Source: Thermoproteota archaeon | GTDB lineage: Archaea; Korarchaeota; JAOZGF01; JAOZFZ01 | Assembly (NCBI GenBank): GCA_027491455.1 | Contig: JAOZFL010000169.1 | Span: 1 to 41,736 of the forward strand | Length of the DNA stretch: 41,736 nt | Reading direction: 5' to 3' | In this document: in pieces, positions 10,193-41,736 of the stretch | Numbering within the stretch: position 1 is the stretch's first letter | Layout: the number at the start of each line of letters is the position of its first letter | Notes under the pieces: generated by a model | Seen by the model: only the letters and a program-made list of their open reading frames with translations | The model's database searches: none | Told to the model about the DNA's origin: nothing | Made by a program: the position numbers and the translations under genes

Positions 10193-11134
10193 TTAGAAGC
10201 CCTTTTCAAAGGGGCCCAAGTGAAAGTAAAGCTCTAAATCCATTTTCACCCTTTTTAGCTCTCCACCAATAAAAACAAAGCTGTCTCCTTTAACATCCAT
10301 TACAAAGCCGCTTAAAAACACATTTATTTCTACATATTCTTTTTCCACTCCGTTTTCATCTGTCAAGTTGTATGTGTAAACATTAATAGTTTTGTTTATT
10401 TCTAGAAGTATTTTAAGCTTTGAAAGCAGCTTACTGCTTGAATCTATACCAGTTACATTTTCAAGTATTTCAATAATTTCCCTATCCATTAAACTCGCAA
10501 CTTTATCTTTTAACTCATTTGTGGTTAGGTTAGATGTTAAGTTTGTCCATGAGAAATTTATTTTCAGGTTTTTAAGTGCTTTTAAAATTCTATATAAAAG
10601 GAAAATCCTCACTGGGTGAGTTACTGACATTTTAACGTTATGATTCAAATTGGAGTTTCCATGTTTATCTTTTATGTGGAGGTTTAACTGTATACCCACA
10701 AACACTGCCCCTCTATCTATTTCTCTACTCCCAATTGTTCCGCTAAGGATCACTTTGTTATATTTTTCATCTGCAAGTTTATGTCCTGTCAACTCCCTCA
10801 AAGTTACTTTGCAATCTGCATCCAAAGAAATCCCCTTTGATCTAAACCTCTGTTTCTCTTTTTCCATCCAACCTTGAAGTGTTTCAACCCCTAATTTAAG
10901 GTTTTCTTCAGGGTTTAAACCATTTAACGCAATTTCATTTATTTTGACATCTAGGTAATCACGTAAGCGAAGCAGCAAATGTGCAATTGTGACTTTTTCT
11001 GTGAATTCAACTCTTTGCATGCTGCCCAAACTCTTAATGTATTCTGATCTATCCACGTGGGGAGTGAAGATGAAGAGTGTTACACCTAGAATCAATATCC
11101 CAAGAGTGAAAAGGAAAGGAAATGGTTTACTCAA
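10193..11134 (-). CDS. Single-pass secreted/cell-surface protein, distal gene of the pilus-like operon
   Basis: N-terminal TM FPFLFTLGILILGVTLFIF, large extracytoplasmic region with NxS/T sites; 4-nt overlap with the next gene. Confidence 0.65.
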   Translation of the reverse strand: MSKPFPFLFTLGILILGVTLFIFTPHVDRSEYIKSLGSMQRVEFTEKVTIAHLLLRLRDYLDVKINEIALNGLNPEENLKLGVETLQGWMEKEKQRFRSKGISLDADCKVTLRELTGHKLADEKYNKVILSGTIGSREIDRGAVFVGIQLNLHIKDKHGNSNLNHNVKMSVTHPVRIFLLYRILKALKNLKINFSWTNLTSNLTTNELKDKVASLMDREIIEILENVTGIDSSSKLLSKLKILLEINKTINVYTYNLTDENGVEKEYVEINVFLSGFVMDVKGDSFVFIGGELKRVKMDLELYFHLGPFEKGF

Positions 11135-11508
11135 CTTTTAATCCCCACTGAAACATTGATTTTAACATTCAACCCATATATTTCAAGTTCATCCTCTGAA
11201 AAACTGTAAAATCCCATGCTTTGGCAGCCGAACACCCGTGTTTCATTATTGATTGACAATGTAAATGCTGTTGATAAACCAGAAGAATTAACTTCTCTGA
11301 AAAGGTTTTCTGGGTTTGAAATCCCCCAAATCACTTTTAAAAGTAATCCTTTGTAGTAAAGATTTTCAATCAGTTTATTTGATTTCTCCCTAAAAAGAAA
11401 AATTTTAGTAACTGGTTTATTCACTGGTGAAAATGTATAATAAGCTGCGAATCCTATTGCTAAAAGTAGAGCTAAAACACCATCAAATATTATTAGGCTT
11501 CTCACCAT
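11131..11508 (-). CDS. Pilin-like small N-terminal-TM protein
   Basis: MVRSLIIFDGVLALLLAIGFAAYYTFSP..., beta-rich C-terminus; operon context. Confidence 0.6.
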   Translation of the reverse strand: MVRSLIIFDGVLALLLAIGFAAYYTFSPVNKPVTKIFLFREKSNKLIENLYYKGLLLKVIWGISNPENLFREVNSSGLSTAFTLSINNETRVFGCQSMGFYSFSEDELEIYGLNVKINVSVGIKS

Positions 11509-11517
11509 TAACCCCTT

Positions 11518-11775
11518 TTATAGATGCATAAGTTTCCATTTCCTTTCCCTTTCAACCCTTACATGTGCTAGGTTAATCAAGGGAATTTCATTAATTTTGC
11601 ATTCATCACGTTTAATGGAACAATAAAATCCGGTATTCATTGAACAGTTTCTTTGAGGTTCAACCACTGGTTTTGTTTCTCTAAAAGCCGGTTGATTCAT
11701 GAAGACAGTGACTAAGAATAAAAGTGCAATTATGAAAAGTGCAAAGGAGAAGGAGAGTTCTAATACTTCATCCAT
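11518..11775 (-). CDS. Pilin-like small N-terminal-TM protein with 3 Cys
   Basis: MDEVLELSFSFALFIIALLFLVTVFM; operon context. Confidence 0.6.
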   Translation of the reverse strand: MDEVLELSFSFALFIIALLFLVTVFMNQPAFRETKPVVEPQRNCSMNTGFYCSIKRDECKINEIPLINLAHVRVERERKWKLMHL

Positions 11776-12170
11776 TATTTAACCCTCTTAGGATGTATCC
11801 AAATCGGAGATATATTTATTGTGTCATTTGGCCCCCCTATCCATGGAGTCTTTACATTAAAACCTGTTTCTAATGAGAAACATGTAGATCCAGGGGTTAA
11901 GCCATTTAAACCTGTGCTGTTTAACAAATAAATGGTTAGGGATTGATTTGACACTAAAACAATGTATTTAAAACCTAGATCCGGCAATTTAAAGGAAACT
12001 GAAATATTTTTCTGGATTGAAAACTCTATAACGCTCCTTAAATCAACTAAGAGCACTGATGAAGCAGTTTCCAACCCCCATTTATAAATGACCAATGAAG
12101 CTTTAAGTGAAACAAAAAGGCCAATCAAACCTATCAAGTAATATATTGTTATTGGTATAGCCCTATGCAC
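11775..12170 (-). CDS. Pilin-like small N-terminal-TM protein
   Basis: PITIYYLIGLIGLFVSLKASLVIYKW...; 1-nt overlap with the neighbour. Confidence 0.6.
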   Translation of the reverse strand: MHRAIPITIYYLIGLIGLFVSLKASLVIYKWGLETASSVLLVDLRSVIEFSIQKNISVSFKLPDLGFKYIVLVSNQSLTIYLLNSTGLNGLTPGSTCFSLETGFNVKTPWIGGPNDTINISPIWIHPKRVK

Positions 12171-12179
12171 TTCATCACC

Positions 12180-12572
12180 TCAACTCACCTCTATTTCCAC
12201 ATGTTCAGAATCCCCTTTTAGTGAAACCCTGTAATATCCATCTTCAGGTACCTTTAAGGTTTCAAACTTTACCTTGAAAGGGTAACACCTGTTTACAGAT
12301 GTTCCCCCTAAACAAAAAACCAATATGTACTGAGAATTGTTCTTCTGAACCCCTATTTCAAGGTTTTTTGGGAGGAAAAGGGTTAGTTCTTCTCTTCCAC
12401 CCCCTATAACAAGGTAAATTGCTTCATCCAGGTCACATGCAATTTTGTCGAGTAAGGAACGGGTTGATTTCCACTGGATTAAAAAGTAGTCTTCAGTTAA
12501 GGCATTAAGGGTTAAGAGTAGCAATGAGAATCCAAGAGCTAAAATAAGAGCTGATGTTATCACTTCATTCAT
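12180..12572 (-). CDS. Pilin-like small N-terminal-TM protein
   Basis: MNEVITSALILALGFSLLLLTLNALTEDYF (acidic residue followed by hydrophobic helix, flagellin/pilin-like), beta-rich C-terminus. Confidence 0.62.
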   Translation of the reverse strand: MNEVITSALILALGFSLLLLTLNALTEDYFLIQWKSTRSLLDKIACDLDEAIYLVIGGGREELTLFLPKNLEIGVQKNNSQYILVFCLGGTSVNRCYPFKVKFETLKVPEDGYYRVSLKGDSEHVEIEVS

Positions 12573-12587
12573 TTGTTTTTCACCGTT

Positions 12588-13277
12588 TCACCTGAAAAAA
12601 GACCAAAAGAAGTTATGGGAGACCAGGAAGACAGCTACATAGATTAAACAGTAGAAGATTGAGTCCTTCACAATTTTCGCAGTCATAACACTGTTAAAAA
12701 ATATTAAAAGGGAGAAAGGAAAAACTAGGTAGTTGTCTGACAATGAAACTTGAGTCGATGTTTTAAATGAATTGAATAAGTAATAAAGTTTTATCAGTCC
12801 CCCCAAGGTAAATGAGAAAATAGTGTTAAGAATCCTTGCTTCAATTCTCTTAACCTTAAATATGTTTTCTCTTTCCTTTTTAAGGTTTAAAAAGGAAATT
12901 AATTCATTTGAAGCATCCATTAATCTTTCTCCAGTTATTAGGTGATCTAGTTTGGAGAGTTTCATGGTTTCAAGTACTTGCTGAATAGATTTATGCTGCT
13001 CCATATCCACTTTTAATTCATCAATAACTTCTAGGAGGGTTTTCTTTCCATGTATTAAGTCTATACACAGGGATTTCACCCTTAGAATGTCTGAGTCTTT
13101 AGCTGATTCTATAAAGGATTTTTCGGGGCTCTTACCCAGAACCATGTTTGAACCAACCTTTCTGATGAAGAAAATCATGTTTTTTTCCTCTTCAATTGTT
13201 AATTTCATGTTTTCTCTCAGTATCAGTTTCTTAATGCCTCTGTACAAGGCACTAAACTTTTTTATGCCTTGAATCAT
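12588..13277 (-). CDS. Type II secretion system F (T2SF/TadB/TadC-like) platform protein
   Basis: Helical cytoplasmic domain (GKSPEKSFIESAKDSDILRVKSLCIDLIHGKKTLLEVIDEL) followed by C-terminal TMs; next to a second T2SF-like gene and the ATPase. Confidence 0.65.
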   Translation of the reverse strand: MIQGIKKFSALYRGIKKLILRENMKLTIEEEKNMIFFIRKVGSNMVLGKSPEKSFIESAKDSDILRVKSLCIDLIHGKKTLLEVIDELKVDMEQHKSIQQVLETMKLSKLDHLITGERLMDASNELISFLNLKKERENIFKVKRIEARILNTIFSFTLGGLIKLYYLFNSFKTSTQVSLSDNYLVFPFSLLIFFNSVMTAKIVKDSIFYCLIYVAVFLVSHNFFWSFFR

Positions 13278-13284
13278 TTCTTTC

Positions 13285-14094
13285 TCACTTTTGAAGGTTA
13301 AACATTTTAATTGAAACCGAAAACCAAACCACGAAAATAATGGTCAATATGGAGGGGTTTAGACTATAAAGAGACCCAATAAGTGTGATTATAAGGGAGT
13401 ATATGTATCCTAGGGTGAGGAACAAGGTAAGTTTAAGGGTTATTTCCTGGTTTATTTTCCTGTATCTTCGCTTTATACTTTCCCTAGCTGCCTTGGAAGC
13501 TAATTTCAATGATTCATACATGTTTAAATAATTAAGGGATAACAAAAGACTCTTTATCTCTTCTTTAAACGGGATTCTTTTCTCCATAATATAATTAACC
13601 AAGGAGTCGAGGGGGTGTTCCCCTCTAATATATATTTTCCTGTACAGATCTGCAAAGTCGCTGCTTATTCCTCTAAGGTTAGCTAAAGAAACATTTTTCA
13701 CCGCTGTAGTTATATTCATGGTGCTAATTAAAGATAAACCTATACATTCAATGAGGTCCACAGAGACCTCTCCGTACCTTTCAATTGTGTTTTCGTAAAG
13801 GTAATTTCCTAAACCCGGTAAAACCACAAAGTACAGGCTGAACAAGAAAAGGATTAAAGAGAGGATTATCTCTGCTCTAAGGGATAAAAAGAACCCTAGA
13901 ATAATGGTTAAGAGTGAAAAGAGGAGTATAGAGACAGCAGCTGCAGATTTAATTTCCACAGAGCAATACGGTATCCCTTTACTTTTTAAGGCAAAGTCTA
14001 ATCTTTCATCTGGTGAGAAATATCTACCCACCAACCGTGTTGAAGAAGAAATAAATTTGTCAATGGGTTTCAGCAGCCATAATCGTCTTTTCAA
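13285..14094 (-). CDS. Type II secretion system F (FlaJ/TadC-like) platform protein
   Basis: Paired TMs, cytoplasmic domain (IECIGLSLISTMNITTAVKNVSLANLRGISSDFADLYRKIYIRGEHPLDSLVNYI), C-terminal TMs. Confidence 0.75.
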   Translation of the reverse strand: MKRRLWLLKPIDKFISSSTRLVGRYFSPDERLDFALKSKGIPYCSVEIKSAAAVSILLFSLLTIILGFFLSLRAEIILSLILFLFSLYFVVLPGLGNYLYENTIERYGEVSVDLIECIGLSLISTMNITTAVKNVSLANLRGISSDFADLYRKIYIRGEHPLDSLVNYIMEKRIPFKEEIKSLLLSLNYLNMYESLKLASKAARESIKRRYRKINQEITLKLTLFLTLGYIYSLIITLIGSLYSLNPSILTIIFVVWFSVSIKMFNLQK

Positions 14095-16000
14095 CCTCTA
14101 AACCCCTAATACGCCTGGTTAATTCACTTAATGATAGGTTTCCCGCCCTTAAATCTTCAAGCATATATTTAATCTTCGAAATCTGGTCATCAAACTCCCT
14201 CTTGGTTAACCCTTGTAATTCAAGAATTCTTTTGACAGGTTTCAGCTTAGATTGATCCCTTATTGTTTTTTCAGCTCTTCCCTTTTCTGGAACCCATTTA
14301 AAGCTGAACTTAAACTCATCTACCCCTGGGTGGCAAATGGACCCCAACCTCCTAGTGACAACTGGTCCCTTAACAATTTTCTTAAGTGAGATTATTGTTT
14401 CAACGGGGTTTAAACTGAACTTCCACTTCAACCACTTCTCACTTAGTTCCTCTAAACTTTTAGAATGAGTGGTTGCCATGCTCCCTATCCCGCTTTCAAC
14501 AGATAAAATAAATGCTTCTATTTCATCGGGTTTCCTAAGCTCTCCTATATAGAGGAAATCAGGGTTTCTCCATAGAGATTTATAGATCTCATTTACTTTT
14601 ACACTTTCCCTTTCAGTTTTAATCTCTAGAGGGGGGACCTCGTAAAGTACATGTTGAACCCCGTAAGGGTTAAAATCCATTATTTCACGTACATCTTCAA
14701 TGGAAATAAGTCTTTTATCAGGTCCCAAGAAGGGTAAAAGTGCATTTGCAAGTGTAGTTTTCCCTGAACTTGTAGGTCCAGTGATCAGTATAGATGTACA
14801 ATTTTTGATTAGCCAAACAAGCAGTGAAGCTGCTTCGCTATTCAGCATCTCTTTTTTAATAAGCTCTGGAAGAGTTAATTTATGTATGTGTAAGTTCCTT
14901 ATATCCAGGGCATGTGTTGAAAGGGGAGGGGCATCGTAGCTGATCCTTGCTTTGTAGTATTTCCCAATAAGGTCTACTTTCACACTTGGCTGCTTATAAG
15001 TTATAACCCCATAGTTATCGGTTGAGATTAAGGATTCTATTTTCTTCACCAAGTTCACGTCCATTTTAACCTCTGTTAGACACTTCCCCAGCTCTGAATG
15101 TTCAATGTGCAGGTTTCTTCCATAAACTCCATAAACCTCATTTATTTCGCTTTCAATATATATGAATGGGAATATCTCCTCTATTTTAGTGTTTGTTGAA
15201 GCTAGTTCAAGTGATAAATCCTTTATTTCTTCAGATCCTAAGTTTGGTAAATATTTTTCTAGGTAGGACTTGGCAAGAGCAACCCTAGTTTCTAGTATTT
15301 CTTCAAAGGACATGTTTAAAATGTCCATTTCAGAGTTATCTAGTTGGTGCACTATTTTCTTTAGAAATAAATCATCCAACCCAAGTTTAGATGAAATCTT
15401 CTTTATTTTTAATAATGTGCTCTGTCCATTTCCCTTAAGGAAAAAGTATCCGAAAGGCCCCCTCCAATTCTCTTCTATAAGAACTAGGTTTCCTATCTCT
15501 TCTTTTTTGGTTATTTGTTCTCTTTTTTTAACCCTTAAAACTTTTCTTTTAATTACTTCCTCATAAACTTCGACACCACGTTCCCTGTAGTCATGGAGAA
15601 ACCTTTTTATTAGATGTGTTTTTCTTAATTTTTTAGTTATTTTCCTAAGGCTTTTGGACTTGTTTGATTCTTCATTTAACTCTAAGAATCCTTGGATAGG
15701 GTTTTGCTTCTGTTTTTCATAGATTCCCCTGTGGATTCCTCTTTCAGCGTCACTTAGTTTAATGAAGTTCTTTGCAAACGTAGATAGGTAATTGATTATT
15801 AATTCAAGGTCCACTTGACATGTGAATTTTGACGAGTCCAGTATTAGTTTTTTTGAATCATCTAGACCCAGCTTACCCTTCAGTATATCATTTAAAACAC
15901 ATCTGATGCATTGCAGGGCAATTGGTAATTGTATGCAATTACATGATTTAATGTTCATGCTTAGACACCACTTTTCATCTTTGAGTTCCTTCTGGGACAA
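14060..16000 (-). CDS. Archaeal type II/IV secretion (TadA/VirB11/GspE-like) ATPase
   Basis: Walker A TGPTSSGKTTLANALL, ISIEDVREI, Walker B-type PDFLYIGELRKPDE, ATTHSKSLEEL; N-terminal CNC-x9-CIRC cluster. Confidence 0.92.
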   Translation of the reverse strand: MSQKELKDEKWCLSMNIKSCNCIQLPIALQCIRCVLNDILKGKLGLDDSKKLILDSSKFTCQVDLELIINYLSTFAKNFIKLSDAERGIHRGIYEKQKQNPIQGFLELNEESNKSKSLRKITKKLRKTHLIKRFLHDYRERGVEVYEEVIKRKVLRVKKREQITKKEEIGNLVLIEENWRGPFGYFFLKGNGQSTLLKIKKISSKLGLDDLFLKKIVHQLDNSEMDILNMSFEEILETRVALAKSYLEKYLPNLGSEEIKDLSLELASTNTKIEEIFPFIYIESEINEVYGVYGRNLHIEHSELGKCLTEVKMDVNLVKKIESLISTDNYGVITYKQPSVKVDLIGKYYKARISYDAPPLSTHALDIRNLHIHKLTLPELIKKEMLNSEAASLLVWLIKNCTSILITGPTSSGKTTLANALLPFLGPDKRLISIEDVREIMDFNPYGVQHVLYEVPPLEIKTERESVKVNEIYKSLWRNPDFLYIGELRKPDEIEAFILSVESGIGSMATTHSKSLEELSEKWLKWKFSLNPVETIISLKKIVKGPVVTRRLGSICHPGVDEFKFSFKWVPEKGRAEKTIRDQSKLKPVKRILELQGLTKREFDDQISKIKYMLEDLRAGNLSLSELTRRIRGLEVEKTIMAAETH

Positions 16001-39116: not shown

Positions 39117-40028
39117 TCATTTTTCAGCCCCCCTATTTTCCCTCATGAAATGAATGATCCACTTGTCTAGTGGAACAGTTTTCCTTCTATATCTTTTAAA
39201 TTTGTGTGGGTAGCCGCCAACTTTATTTTGGGCTTCCTTAACGAGTGAATCAGCTTCTCCGGTAATGTAATTGTCCCAGTCAGGGTAGTGCTTGTACATT
39301 TCAATAGATGTCCAGTCTAAGCTGAAATCTTCCAGTTGATCCGGATTCAAACATACAGCCACTGAGTCGAGATCTCTATGGAGGCTTAAGATCGATGTGG
39401 CGACAGCTTTGGGGTTTACCCTGTTCTCCACTTTAAGTTTTCCAGCGTTAAATTTACATCTTACCTCATGGATTTTCCATCTGGTTTTCTCCACTACATA
39501 TTCAACTACCGAGTATGCAATGTCAAGTGGATCCATTTTCCCATAAACATCTTCCGAGATCGACTTCGGGTGCAAATGAACATGGCACCCGTTGCCACTC
39601 CACTTGATGATAACAGACCTTGAAACTCCTTTGCTCTTAAGGAAATTGGTTATTACTCTGCAAGCTGCAATTGTAGCCGTGTATTTTGCTCTTTCATTGT
39701 CAATGTCCCATGTTGGCAGGGGGAAGCATGTATTTGACGGATCAGTTACATCCCATGTGTTTTCCAGCTTCTTGTATCGGAGAATTGAGACGTAGATTGT
39801 TCTCGGCTTTAAATCTATGTGTTCATTGATGATCTTATTTACATCGTTTTGTTCTTGGATGTAGAGAGGTTTTTTCCCTCTTCTATATGAGTATCTTATA
39901 AATACTTTTTCCCCTTTTTCGTTTTTCTCTTCGCATTGAAGGGCCAGCCATCTTCCCTTCGAAAACCTAAAGATTTGCTTCTGCACATTTTTATCATTGT
40001 AATGTTTCAACACCTTCTCGTAATCCAT
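39117..40028 (-). CDS. Archaeo-eukaryotic primase (AEP)-superfamily-like protein
   Basis: PTWDIDNE (motif I-like DxD), IIKWSGNGCHVHLHPKS (motif II-like SGxGxH), ATSILSLHRDLDSVAV (motif III region SLH-K/R). Confidence 0.65.
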   Translation of the reverse strand: MDYEKVLKHYNDKNVQKQIFRFSKGRWLALQCEEKNEKGEKVFIRYSYRRGKKPLYIQEQNDVNKIINEHIDLKPRTIYVSILRYKKLENTWDVTDPSNTCFPLPTWDIDNERAKYTATIAACRVITNFLKSKGVSRSVIIKWSGNGCHVHLHPKSISEDVYGKMDPLDIAYSVVEYVVEKTRWKIHEVRCKFNAGKLKVENRVNPKAVATSILSLHRDLDSVAVCLNPDQLEDFSLDWTSIEMYKHYPDWDNYITGEADSLVKEAQNKVGGYPHKFKRYRRKTVPLDKWIIHFMRENRGAEK

Positions 40029-40044: not shown

Positions 40045-41736
40045 CTACGGTATTTCTTTATTTTTCTCCTCCTTAGACTTAAGGATCTTTTCTGTGACGT
40101 GGCTTGGCAGCGCTACATCTTCTTTTCTCCAAGCAGGTGACTTTAAAACGAGGCCTACTTTGTTCTCGATTGAGATTTCATACATTTGTAGGCTGTGAGG
40201 TGTTTGCCTCATCTTCTCAATTAATATATACCTCCTAAGTTCCCCCTGTCTCACATAGCGTCTGAACCTTATGATTCCATCAGCGATGTGTTCCAATCCG
40301 AAGCCGAAGGCGTCACTGGTGTTGTGGGCAACTGCTCCTATCGCTCCACATATGAAGTTTTCTCGGTCTGGAACCGAAACATCGTAAATGAAGTGGGCTT
40401 CAGGTTTTTCATTTACTGTTTCATCGACCTCGATGAAACCAATATCCCCCCTAACAATTTTCTTTAATTCATTGATCATTCTAAGAGATTTTAAGCCCTT
40501 CACTGTTGGTTTGATCAATGCTTCCCTTTTACTTTGCTTAACTAAGCCTAATTCCCTGAAAACTTCAATCATTTTTTCCAATTTATCCTCTTTAATCCTA
40601 AGTTTTAAGGAGAGTTCTCTAATTTTTACTCTTTTCCTTTCATAGAGAAGTTTTAGAAGTTCTGTCTCGTTATTAAACCTATTTAAGTAATTTAAGGCTT
40701 CTCCTCTGCTGAGAAGCCCATTTTTCAAATCGTCTATCGACTTGTTTTCTTTCCACCTAAGAGACTTAACTGCATCTTTAATAAGTTTACTGGGTATTAT
40801 TTTAGGTTGAAGCTGCTCAAACTGTGTTCCTTGGACCTGACCCATCAACTCCTCCTTTAATGAAGAATCTGCTGCACTTAAATCCTTATCACCATATGAA
40901 ACCTTTTTTGCCTTGAATAAAGATTTAAAAGCTGGATAAATAACTATGTATTCTCCATCTTTTATTTTTCCAGCGTTTTTCAGCGTTATTCCATTAGAAG
41001 GGTTAAACACGTATAAGCTGTGAGAGGGAGAAACTCTTACCTCTTCTCCATCTTTTAACTTCAGCTTTACAATTTCCCCTCTGATTTTACTCCGGATAAT
41101 AAATTTAACTGGTTCTAAGCTAACTTTGTAGGTTTTTAAATTCAATGTAAATGTTTTGTAGTTGCAATGCCCTATGTTAAGGGTTCCCTCATCCCCTGGA
41201 GAGAAGAACTTGTCCACGAAGACCCCTATAGGCATTGTTTTTAAGCTTTTATTGTCAGCGATGGCTATAGGTTCGTTCCAGTCTACACTTGTAATTGCAT
41301 ATTGGCTCACCATTAGGATTGTGAATCTCCATTTACTCAGCACTTTCTTCACGAAGTAAGAGTACTTCCTAGCCATCGCCGGTTTATCTAGCCAGAAAGC
41401 ACTCATGGAATCTATTACTAAACGGGCGTCTCCATATCCAAGTTGTTTTTTCGCCGCTATAACTTTCTGAACTAATTCCTCAGGGTCTAAGCTGTTTAGA
41501 GACCATGGATCACCCTTGACCTGCATGAGGGCATCGATAACCAGTAACTGTTTCTTTTCTATGCCTTCCCTTAGATTAAGGCTGAATTGATCTGCTTGGT
41601 TTAAAATAGATTCCTTCGACTCTTCAGTTGTGACGTACACACATTTGTCCCCTAATTTTATACCTTCAGAAATAAAGTGTAAGCAGAAAACTGTTTTACC
41701 GGTTCCAGGTTCCCCGGTAACAGCTACAAGGAAACC
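40045..41736 (-). CDS. KaiC-like RecA-fold ATPase interrupted by an in-frame intein (5' part of gene outside the window)
   Basis: Reading past the track start to the edge gives GFLVAVTGEPGTGKTVFCLHFISEGIKLGDKCVYVTTEESKE (Walker A); ARLVIDSMSAFW; exteins rejoin as SQYAIT/TSDAFGFGLEHIADGIIRFRRYVRQGELRRYILIEKMRQTPHS. Confidence 0.93.
   Translation of the reverse strand, partial: GFLVAVTGEPGTGKTVFCLHFISEGIKLGDKCVYVTTEESKESILNQADQFSLNLREGIEKKQLLVIDALMQVKGDPWSLNSLDPEELVQKVIAAKKQLGYGDARLVIDSMSAFWLDKPAMARKYSYFVKKVLSKWRFTILMVSQYAITSVDWNEPIAIADNKSLKTMPIGVFVDKFFSPGDEGTLNIGHCNYKTFTLNLKTYKVSLEPVKFIIRSKIRGEIVKLKLKDGEEVRVSPSHSLYVFNPSNGITLKNAGKIKDGEYIVIYPAFKSLFKAKKVSYGDKDLSAADSSLKEELMGQVQGTQFEQLQPKIIPSKLIKDAVKSLRWKENKSIDDLKNGLLSRGEALNYLNRFNNETELLKLLYERKRVKIRELSLKLRIKEDKLEKMIEVFRELGLVKQSKREALIKPTVKGLKSLRMINELKKIVRGDIGFIEVDETVNEKPEAHFIYDVSVPDRENFICGAIGAVAHNTSDAFGFGLEHIADGIIRFRRYVRQGELRRYILIEKMRQTPHSLQMYEISIENKVGLVLKSPAWRKEDVALPSHVTEKILKSKEEKNKEIP
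40321..41289 (-). other. Intein (323 aa, Ser1, C-terminal His-Asn, Thr+1)
   Basis: Block A SVDWNEPIAIADNKSLKTMPIGVF; block B VRVSPSHSLYVF; block F FIYDVSVPDRENFIC; block G GAIGAVAHN|T. The codon boundaries at 41289 and 40321 were checked. Confidence 0.92.

Follow-up and report, generated by a model that had tools for sequence, protein, structure and literature searches.

The KaiC-type ATPase gene at one end of the window (that is, the whole stretch of 41,736 nucleotides that was analysed) is interrupted by an intein that has a Hint splicing domain and no detectable homing endonuclease, and that carries a winged helix-turn-helix (wHTH) segment directly before the C-terminal half of the Hint domain. 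The analysis established the anatomy of this intein, the absence of LAGLIDADG from it, the equivalence of its wHTH slot to that of related inteins, and the existence of empty sites in orthologous genes. It is probable that the intein descends from a LAGLIDADG intein with a wHTH accessory domain (ACD) between the endonuclease and Hint-C, and that it lost the LAGLIDADG core and kept the wHTH.

The intein and its host gene

The host gene belongs to the KaiC_arch_4 family (NCBIfam TIGR03881), and its product P0001 (563 aa) contains the 323-aa intein P0002 in the same single open frame; P0001 is open at the 5′ end only because the contig stops at position 41736. The earlier note had placed an intein at 40321-41289, and these coordinates were found to be right; the strand, which it left unstated, is minus. 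Table 1 gives the parts of the intein and of the gene around it.

Table 1. Features of the intein-containing KaiC locus in the window
Feature	Position	Strand	Evidence or remark
KaiC_arch_4-type RecA-fold ATPase, host gene split by the intein	40045..41736	(-)	TIGR03881 1.4e-94; 5′-open
N-extein, last residues ...ILMVSQYAIT	41290..41736	(-)	
Intein, 323 aa, Ser1 to His322-Asn323	40321..41289	(-)	Pfam Intein_splicing 5.1e-20; empty site in 16 orthologs
Hint-N, blocks A and B, aa 1-122, block B His90	40924..41289	(-)	intein_Nterm 30.7 bits, cut-off 24.5
Linker, aa 123-204	40678..40923	(-)	LAGLIDADG slot in relatives; no detectable similarity to any domain
Winged-helix segment, aa 205-280	40450..40677	(-)	ACD position; FeoC 1.3e-4, HTH_45 0.007-0.027
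Hint-C, blocks F and G, aa 283-323	40321..40443	(-)	intein_Cterm 19.0 bits, cut-off 15.6
C-extein, starts TSDAFGFG..., stop codon included	40045..40320	(-)	
Next gene downstream of KaiC	39117..40028	(-)	Homolog after KaiC in G001, apparently also in G010 and G014

The splicing blocks A, B, F and G named in the earlier note were recovered by profile models, with the Pfam Intein_splicing match reaching 72.3 bits against a cut-off of 35.8 and both NCBIfam models (intein_Nterm and intein_Cterm) scoring above their curated cut-offs. The residues Ser1, His90, Asp303, His322-Asn323 and Thr+1 were read directly, and nucleophiles are present both at residue 1 and at the +1 position of the C-extein. Block B is VRVSPSHSLY, with SxxH in place of the usual TxxH, block F is FIYDVSVPDRENFI, and block G is AVAHN, followed by Thr+1. 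The intein is expected to remain able to excise itself from KaiC, through an acyl shift at Ser1, transesterification to Thr+1, and cyclisation of Asn323.

The exteins had also been claimed to rejoin as SQYAIT/TSDAFGFG (the slash marks the junction), and it was found that genome G001 (L031/L063), which belongs to the same family, has this spliced sequence without interruption; its site reads SQYAITTSDAFGFG, an exact match to the predicted product of splicing the window gene. A survey of orthologs, which the earlier note had proposed, covered 29 genomes of the phylum and gave a KaiC_arch_4 gene in 19 of them, 3 with an intein and 16 uninterrupted (G001 and 15 others), so that the conserved host site lacks an insert in the orthologs, and the exteins restore it precisely. 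In the profile search of contigs for KaiC, the best 80 matches favour uninterrupted genes, so intein frequency cannot be read from it. A profile built over the whole intein for the contigs showed no conserved stretch. In the open-licence literature, the words KaiC and intein co-occur in only one paper, which concerns Y-family DNA polymerases.

The gene directly after KaiC encodes a 303-aa protein without a Pfam match, and the two genes form a conserved pair, with the same order in G001 and apparently, as read by eye, in G010 and G014. Because a homolog of the downstream gene follows KaiC in these genomes, the locus looks like ordinary chromosome, which supports the assembly as well as the chromosomal setting. 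Elsewhere in the window (11131-16000, minus strand), a T2SSE-type ATPase gene adjoins membrane-protein genes, an arrangement resembling archaeal clusters for type IV pili or secretion, with profile support for the ATPase only. A phosphoglucomutase/phosphomannomutase gene of the same genome (L129:4816-7845, contig C43) contains a 533-aa intein with LAGLIDADG_3, and this enzyme seems an unusual intein host.

Two other KaiC_arch_4 genes, those of genomes G010 and G014, contain 540-aa inteins (L061:1483-3102 and L062:4375-5994, respectively) that are inserted one codon downstream of the window site, the insertion reading QYAITT/SITG...CHN/SEAFGFG in these genomes and QYAIT/S...HN/TSDAFGFG in the window. 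They share with the window intein the host protein, the loop, and a short wing-like stretch of the type ...GLI...LTEKG... before Hint-C, whereas they carry LAGLIDADG_3 (3e-16 and 2e-16, respectively) and are only distantly related to it (20 and 22% identity). The two insertions, at points three bases apart, would seem to be separate entry events, or may reflect a single lineage that shifted by one codon. The entry of one KaiC loop at two such positions bears on how inteins reach new sites. No intermediate with a half-degraded LAGLIDADG was found at this KaiC site.

The winged-helix segment and the missing endonuclease

The absence of LAGLIDADG was observed as the earlier note had proposed: there was no Pfam match to LAGLIDADG in the window intein up to E=10, the dodecapeptide pattern is absent, and aa 118-203 scored no better than their own shuffles against a hidden Markov model (HMM) of LAGLIDADG inteins. 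There was also no match to HNH, GIY-YIG, or any other homing nuclease in Pfam and NCBIfam up to E=10, the exception among the nuclease searches being a weak overlap, below cut-off, of the wHTH with a model of an ssDNA exonuclease C-terminal domain. The window intein is thus neither a LAGLIDADG (DOD) homing intein nor a homing intein of the HNH, GIY-YIG, or other types; it is an endonuclease-less (mini-) intein, in which the Hint domain is accompanied by no homing endonuclease domain, and it exceeds the smallest minis in size owing to the linker and the wHTH, the matched Hint halves lying 163 aa apart.

The wHTH that had been read at 40456-40668 was recovered by several models. The FeoC-like wHTH model gave 22.5 bits against a Pfam cut-off of 21 (1.3e-4), and HTH_45, RuvB_C and HTH_27 matched the same stretch more weakly; as judged from these profiles, the agreement of several wHTH models on one stretch, each weak alone, is more than would be expected by chance. 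When the window intein and the MCM and topoisomerase VI-B inteins described below were combined, by their C-terminal halves, into one profile, it matched the Sso10a winged helix 1r7j (1.3e-5) over columns 39-80, which correspond to the wHTH and the following helix and not to Hint-C. Therefore, an HTH-type domain occupies the slot before Hint-C, with its fold class assigned from profiles only. AlphaFold modelling had been called for in the earlier note. AlphaFold2 without an alignment yielded a mean pLDDT of 36 for the full intein; the wHTH was its best-modelled part, with the order helix-helix-helix-strand-strand-helix, which fits a winged helix, and segment 196-290 alone was modelled as one long helix. 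Such runs are too poor to add weight on the fold, and we regard them as uninformative.

The wHTH contains no stop or frameshift that would disable it, and no second copy or donor was detected in the same genome up to E=1. The window intein was found as a single copy in one genome only, and no relatives were found in viral contigs.

Relatives of the window intein were found in two other host genes. Two MCM inteins (L098:4208-5725 and L246:2519-4096) and two topoisomerase VI-B inteins (L064:4825-6501 and L247:1681-3348) have the order Hint-N, LAGLIDADG, wHTH, Hint-C, and in the MCM intein L098, LAGLIDADG_3 matched at 3.1e-8 and HTH_45 at 2.5e-6, above the Pfam cut-off. These four have in common with the window intein the type of Hint-N, the wHTH slot, Hint-C, Ser1, and the His-Asn end, whereas they contain LAGLIDADG, which the window intein does not, and lie in different host genes. 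Hint-N (aa 1-117) aligned to the inteins with both wHTH and LAGLIDADG at an hhalign probability of 98.8. An HMM of the four relatives aligned to aa 1-117 (2e-23) and to aa 182-323 (1e-16, columns 419-558), and the model columns 118-418, which are the LAGLIDADG part, were skipped, so that about 300 columns in the relatives stand against an 80-aa linker in the window intein. The stretch IIPSKL...LLSRGEALNYL (aa 165-202), within which the second block of this alignment starts, resembles the usual sequence after the second LAGLIDADG repeat and is not significant alone. In a Pfam scan of 83 archaeal inteins, a sample assembled by likeness to the window intein such that the counts are not natural frequencies, LAGLIDADG_3 was found in 71 and HTH_45 in 5 (the four relatives and the window intein), the window intein being the only one of these 5 without LAGLIDADG.

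In tblastn, the best matches of the window Hint-N were to MCM inteins (1e-16, 34% identity), and aa 218-323, Hint-C included, matched the MCM intein L098 (8e-10). With the Hint-C columns removed, the likeness of the wHTH to the four relatives was weak: hhalign gave P=6e-4 in local and 0.0035 in global mode, and the HMM score of the wHTH was beaten by 7 of 2000 shuffles (rank 8). A tree of Hint domains grouped the window intein with the MCM inteins at 83% under LG+G4; under the better C20 mixture model, the position of the window intein, which has a long end branch (1.64), was not resolved (AU p=0.37). It is well supported that the slot and the fold class are the same as in the wHTH-bearing LAGLIDADG inteins, and common ancestry of the window wHTH and the wHTH of the relatives is likely. 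By eye, several other inteins (L126, L019, L131, and others) seemingly have a repressor-type HTH before Hint-C, and an intein in a HerA-like ATPase (L065:3515-5263, minus strand) has a stretch resembling a wHTH that precedes LAGLIDADG instead of following it.

These comparisons change one part of the earlier note and strengthen another. It had described the wHTH as present instead of LAGLIDADG, and this does not hold: the wHTH normally sits beside the endonuclease in the MCM and topoisomerase VI-B inteins, and because it is an accessory domain there, it is not an endonuclease replacement. The suggestion that the intein is a remnant gained support, as the LAGLIDADG columns are the only ones left unmatched when the window intein is aligned to the wHTH-LAGLIDADG profile. 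It had also been allowed that the insert might prove to be a degenerate LAGLIDADG or part of the DNA-recognition region of a DOD intein; the latter applies in part to the wHTH, and a degenerate LAGLIDADG was not detected.

Origin and possible role of the winged-helix segment

The ancestor of the window intein would have been an archaeal LAGLIDADG intein in which a winged-helix accessory domain separated the endonuclease from Hint-C; the LAGLIDADG core would then have been deleted while the accessory domain stayed. Having no endonuclease, the window intein presumably can no longer home by itself, and its wHTH would most likely be a relic that today fills, or gives stability to, the endonuclease loop joining the two Hint halves, parallel to the retained loops and degenerate endonucleases of other thermophile inteins.

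A different origin, the capture of a transcription-factor wHTH by a mini-intein without an endonuclease, independently of the LAGLIDADG inteins and as a loop or DNA-binding appendage, would agree with the weak likeness of the wHTH to that of the LAGLIDADG relatives once Hint-C is removed, with its AT-richness (a GC content of 0.31, compared with 0.36 for the intein overall and 0.42-0.44 for the exteins), and with a proposal that accessory domains are taken up from transcription factors (PMC8966425). However, the slot, the continuous alignment, and the Pfam HTH_45 model are all common to the four LAGLIDADG inteins, the low-GC stretch is short and could be due to chance, and the lack of a second wHTH copy in the same genome argues against a recent local donor, so that we consider capture unlikely. 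It is less probable still that the likeness to a wHTH is only apparent and that the segment is a degraded stretch of endonuclease or DNA-recognition region; several wHTH models coincide on it, the wHTH of the relative L098 exceeds the Pfam cut-off, and the full-length AlphaFold model, though poor, gave the winged-helix order of elements there. The weak individual Pfam scores and the single long helix modelled for the segment alone speak for this reading.

The earlier note had further raised a new homing type; for this, an unrecognised nuclease would have to reside in the wHTH or in the 80-aa linker. The linker does lack a recognised domain, but the searches up to E=10 matched no kind of nuclease motif, whether LAGLIDADG, HNH, GIY-YIG, or another, and this idea thus received no support; a homing nuclease would ordinarily be longer than about 80 aa, the wHTH is ordinarily explained as an accessory domain, and we regard the proposal as highly improbable. 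The third suggestion, a regulatory intein whose wHTH binds DNA or a ligand and times the splicing of KaiC, or which acts as a DNA-binding protein after excision, is compatible with a deletion origin and a capture origin alike. It draws on the intact reading frame of the wHTH and on the RadA intein, whose host likewise has a RecA fold and whose splicing is controlled by ssDNA and a vestigial endonuclease loop (PMC5790916). Yet the isolated accessory domain of TliVMA seemingly makes no contribution to overall DNA affinity (PMC8966425), and the occurrence of the window intein in one genome only, with the site empty in the same-family genome, speaks against a long-conserved switch; we therefore think regulation doubtful. 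If the wHTH were in use, it would constitute a splicing switch derived from an accessory domain whose homing endonuclease has been lost, which we hold to be similarly doubtful.

Returning to the loss of the endonuclease core as the probable history, the unusual point seems to be that the wHTH outlived its endonuclease, and the window intein seems to represent an uncommon stage of a life cycle already known for mobile elements and no new kind of element. In the homing-cycle model, the endonuclease degrades and vanishes after fixation, and here the core is gone and an accessory domain of the DNA-recognition type remains. If this deletion history is right, intein modules can be lost separately, and the window intein offers a natural experiment on whether splicing benefits from an accessory domain alone. 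The survey also brought to light winged-helix accessory domains in archaeal MCM and topoisomerase VI-B inteins.

Comparison with known inteins

Accessory domains have been described in solved endonuclease inteins, and it was proposed in the same work that inteins acquire them from genes such as those of transcription factors and that the endonuclease decays after fixation of the intein (PMC8966425, 2022). The accessory domains of TliVMA and PI-TkoII are HTH-like, and that of TliVMA joins the endonuclease to Hint-C (PMC8966425), so that the window intein has in common with them an HTH-type domain and, with TliVMA, its link to Hint-C. In contrast, TliVMA and PI-TkoII keep the endonuclease domain, PI-TkoII has a domain IV in addition, and their HTH was likened to the phage 434 repressor and not described as a winged helix (PMC8966425). 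Sso10a (1r7j) resembles the window intein over the wHTH columns of the profile, whereas it is free-standing and not part of an intein.

The MjaTFIIB, RadA and CDC21 inteins share with the window intein a lost or degraded endonuclease, and no HTH domain is reported in their retained loop in the accessible portions of PMC6801210 and PMC5790916. The leftover loop matters for splicing in some of them: MjaTFIIB splices only with its endonuclease domain or, in place of that domain, a long linker (PMC6801210), and splicing of the RadA intein in native exteins depends critically on what was once its endonuclease loop (PMC5790916). Taken with the accessory domains of TliVMA and PI-TkoII, these findings make a structural role for the retained accessory domain of the window intein plausible and a regulatory one possible.
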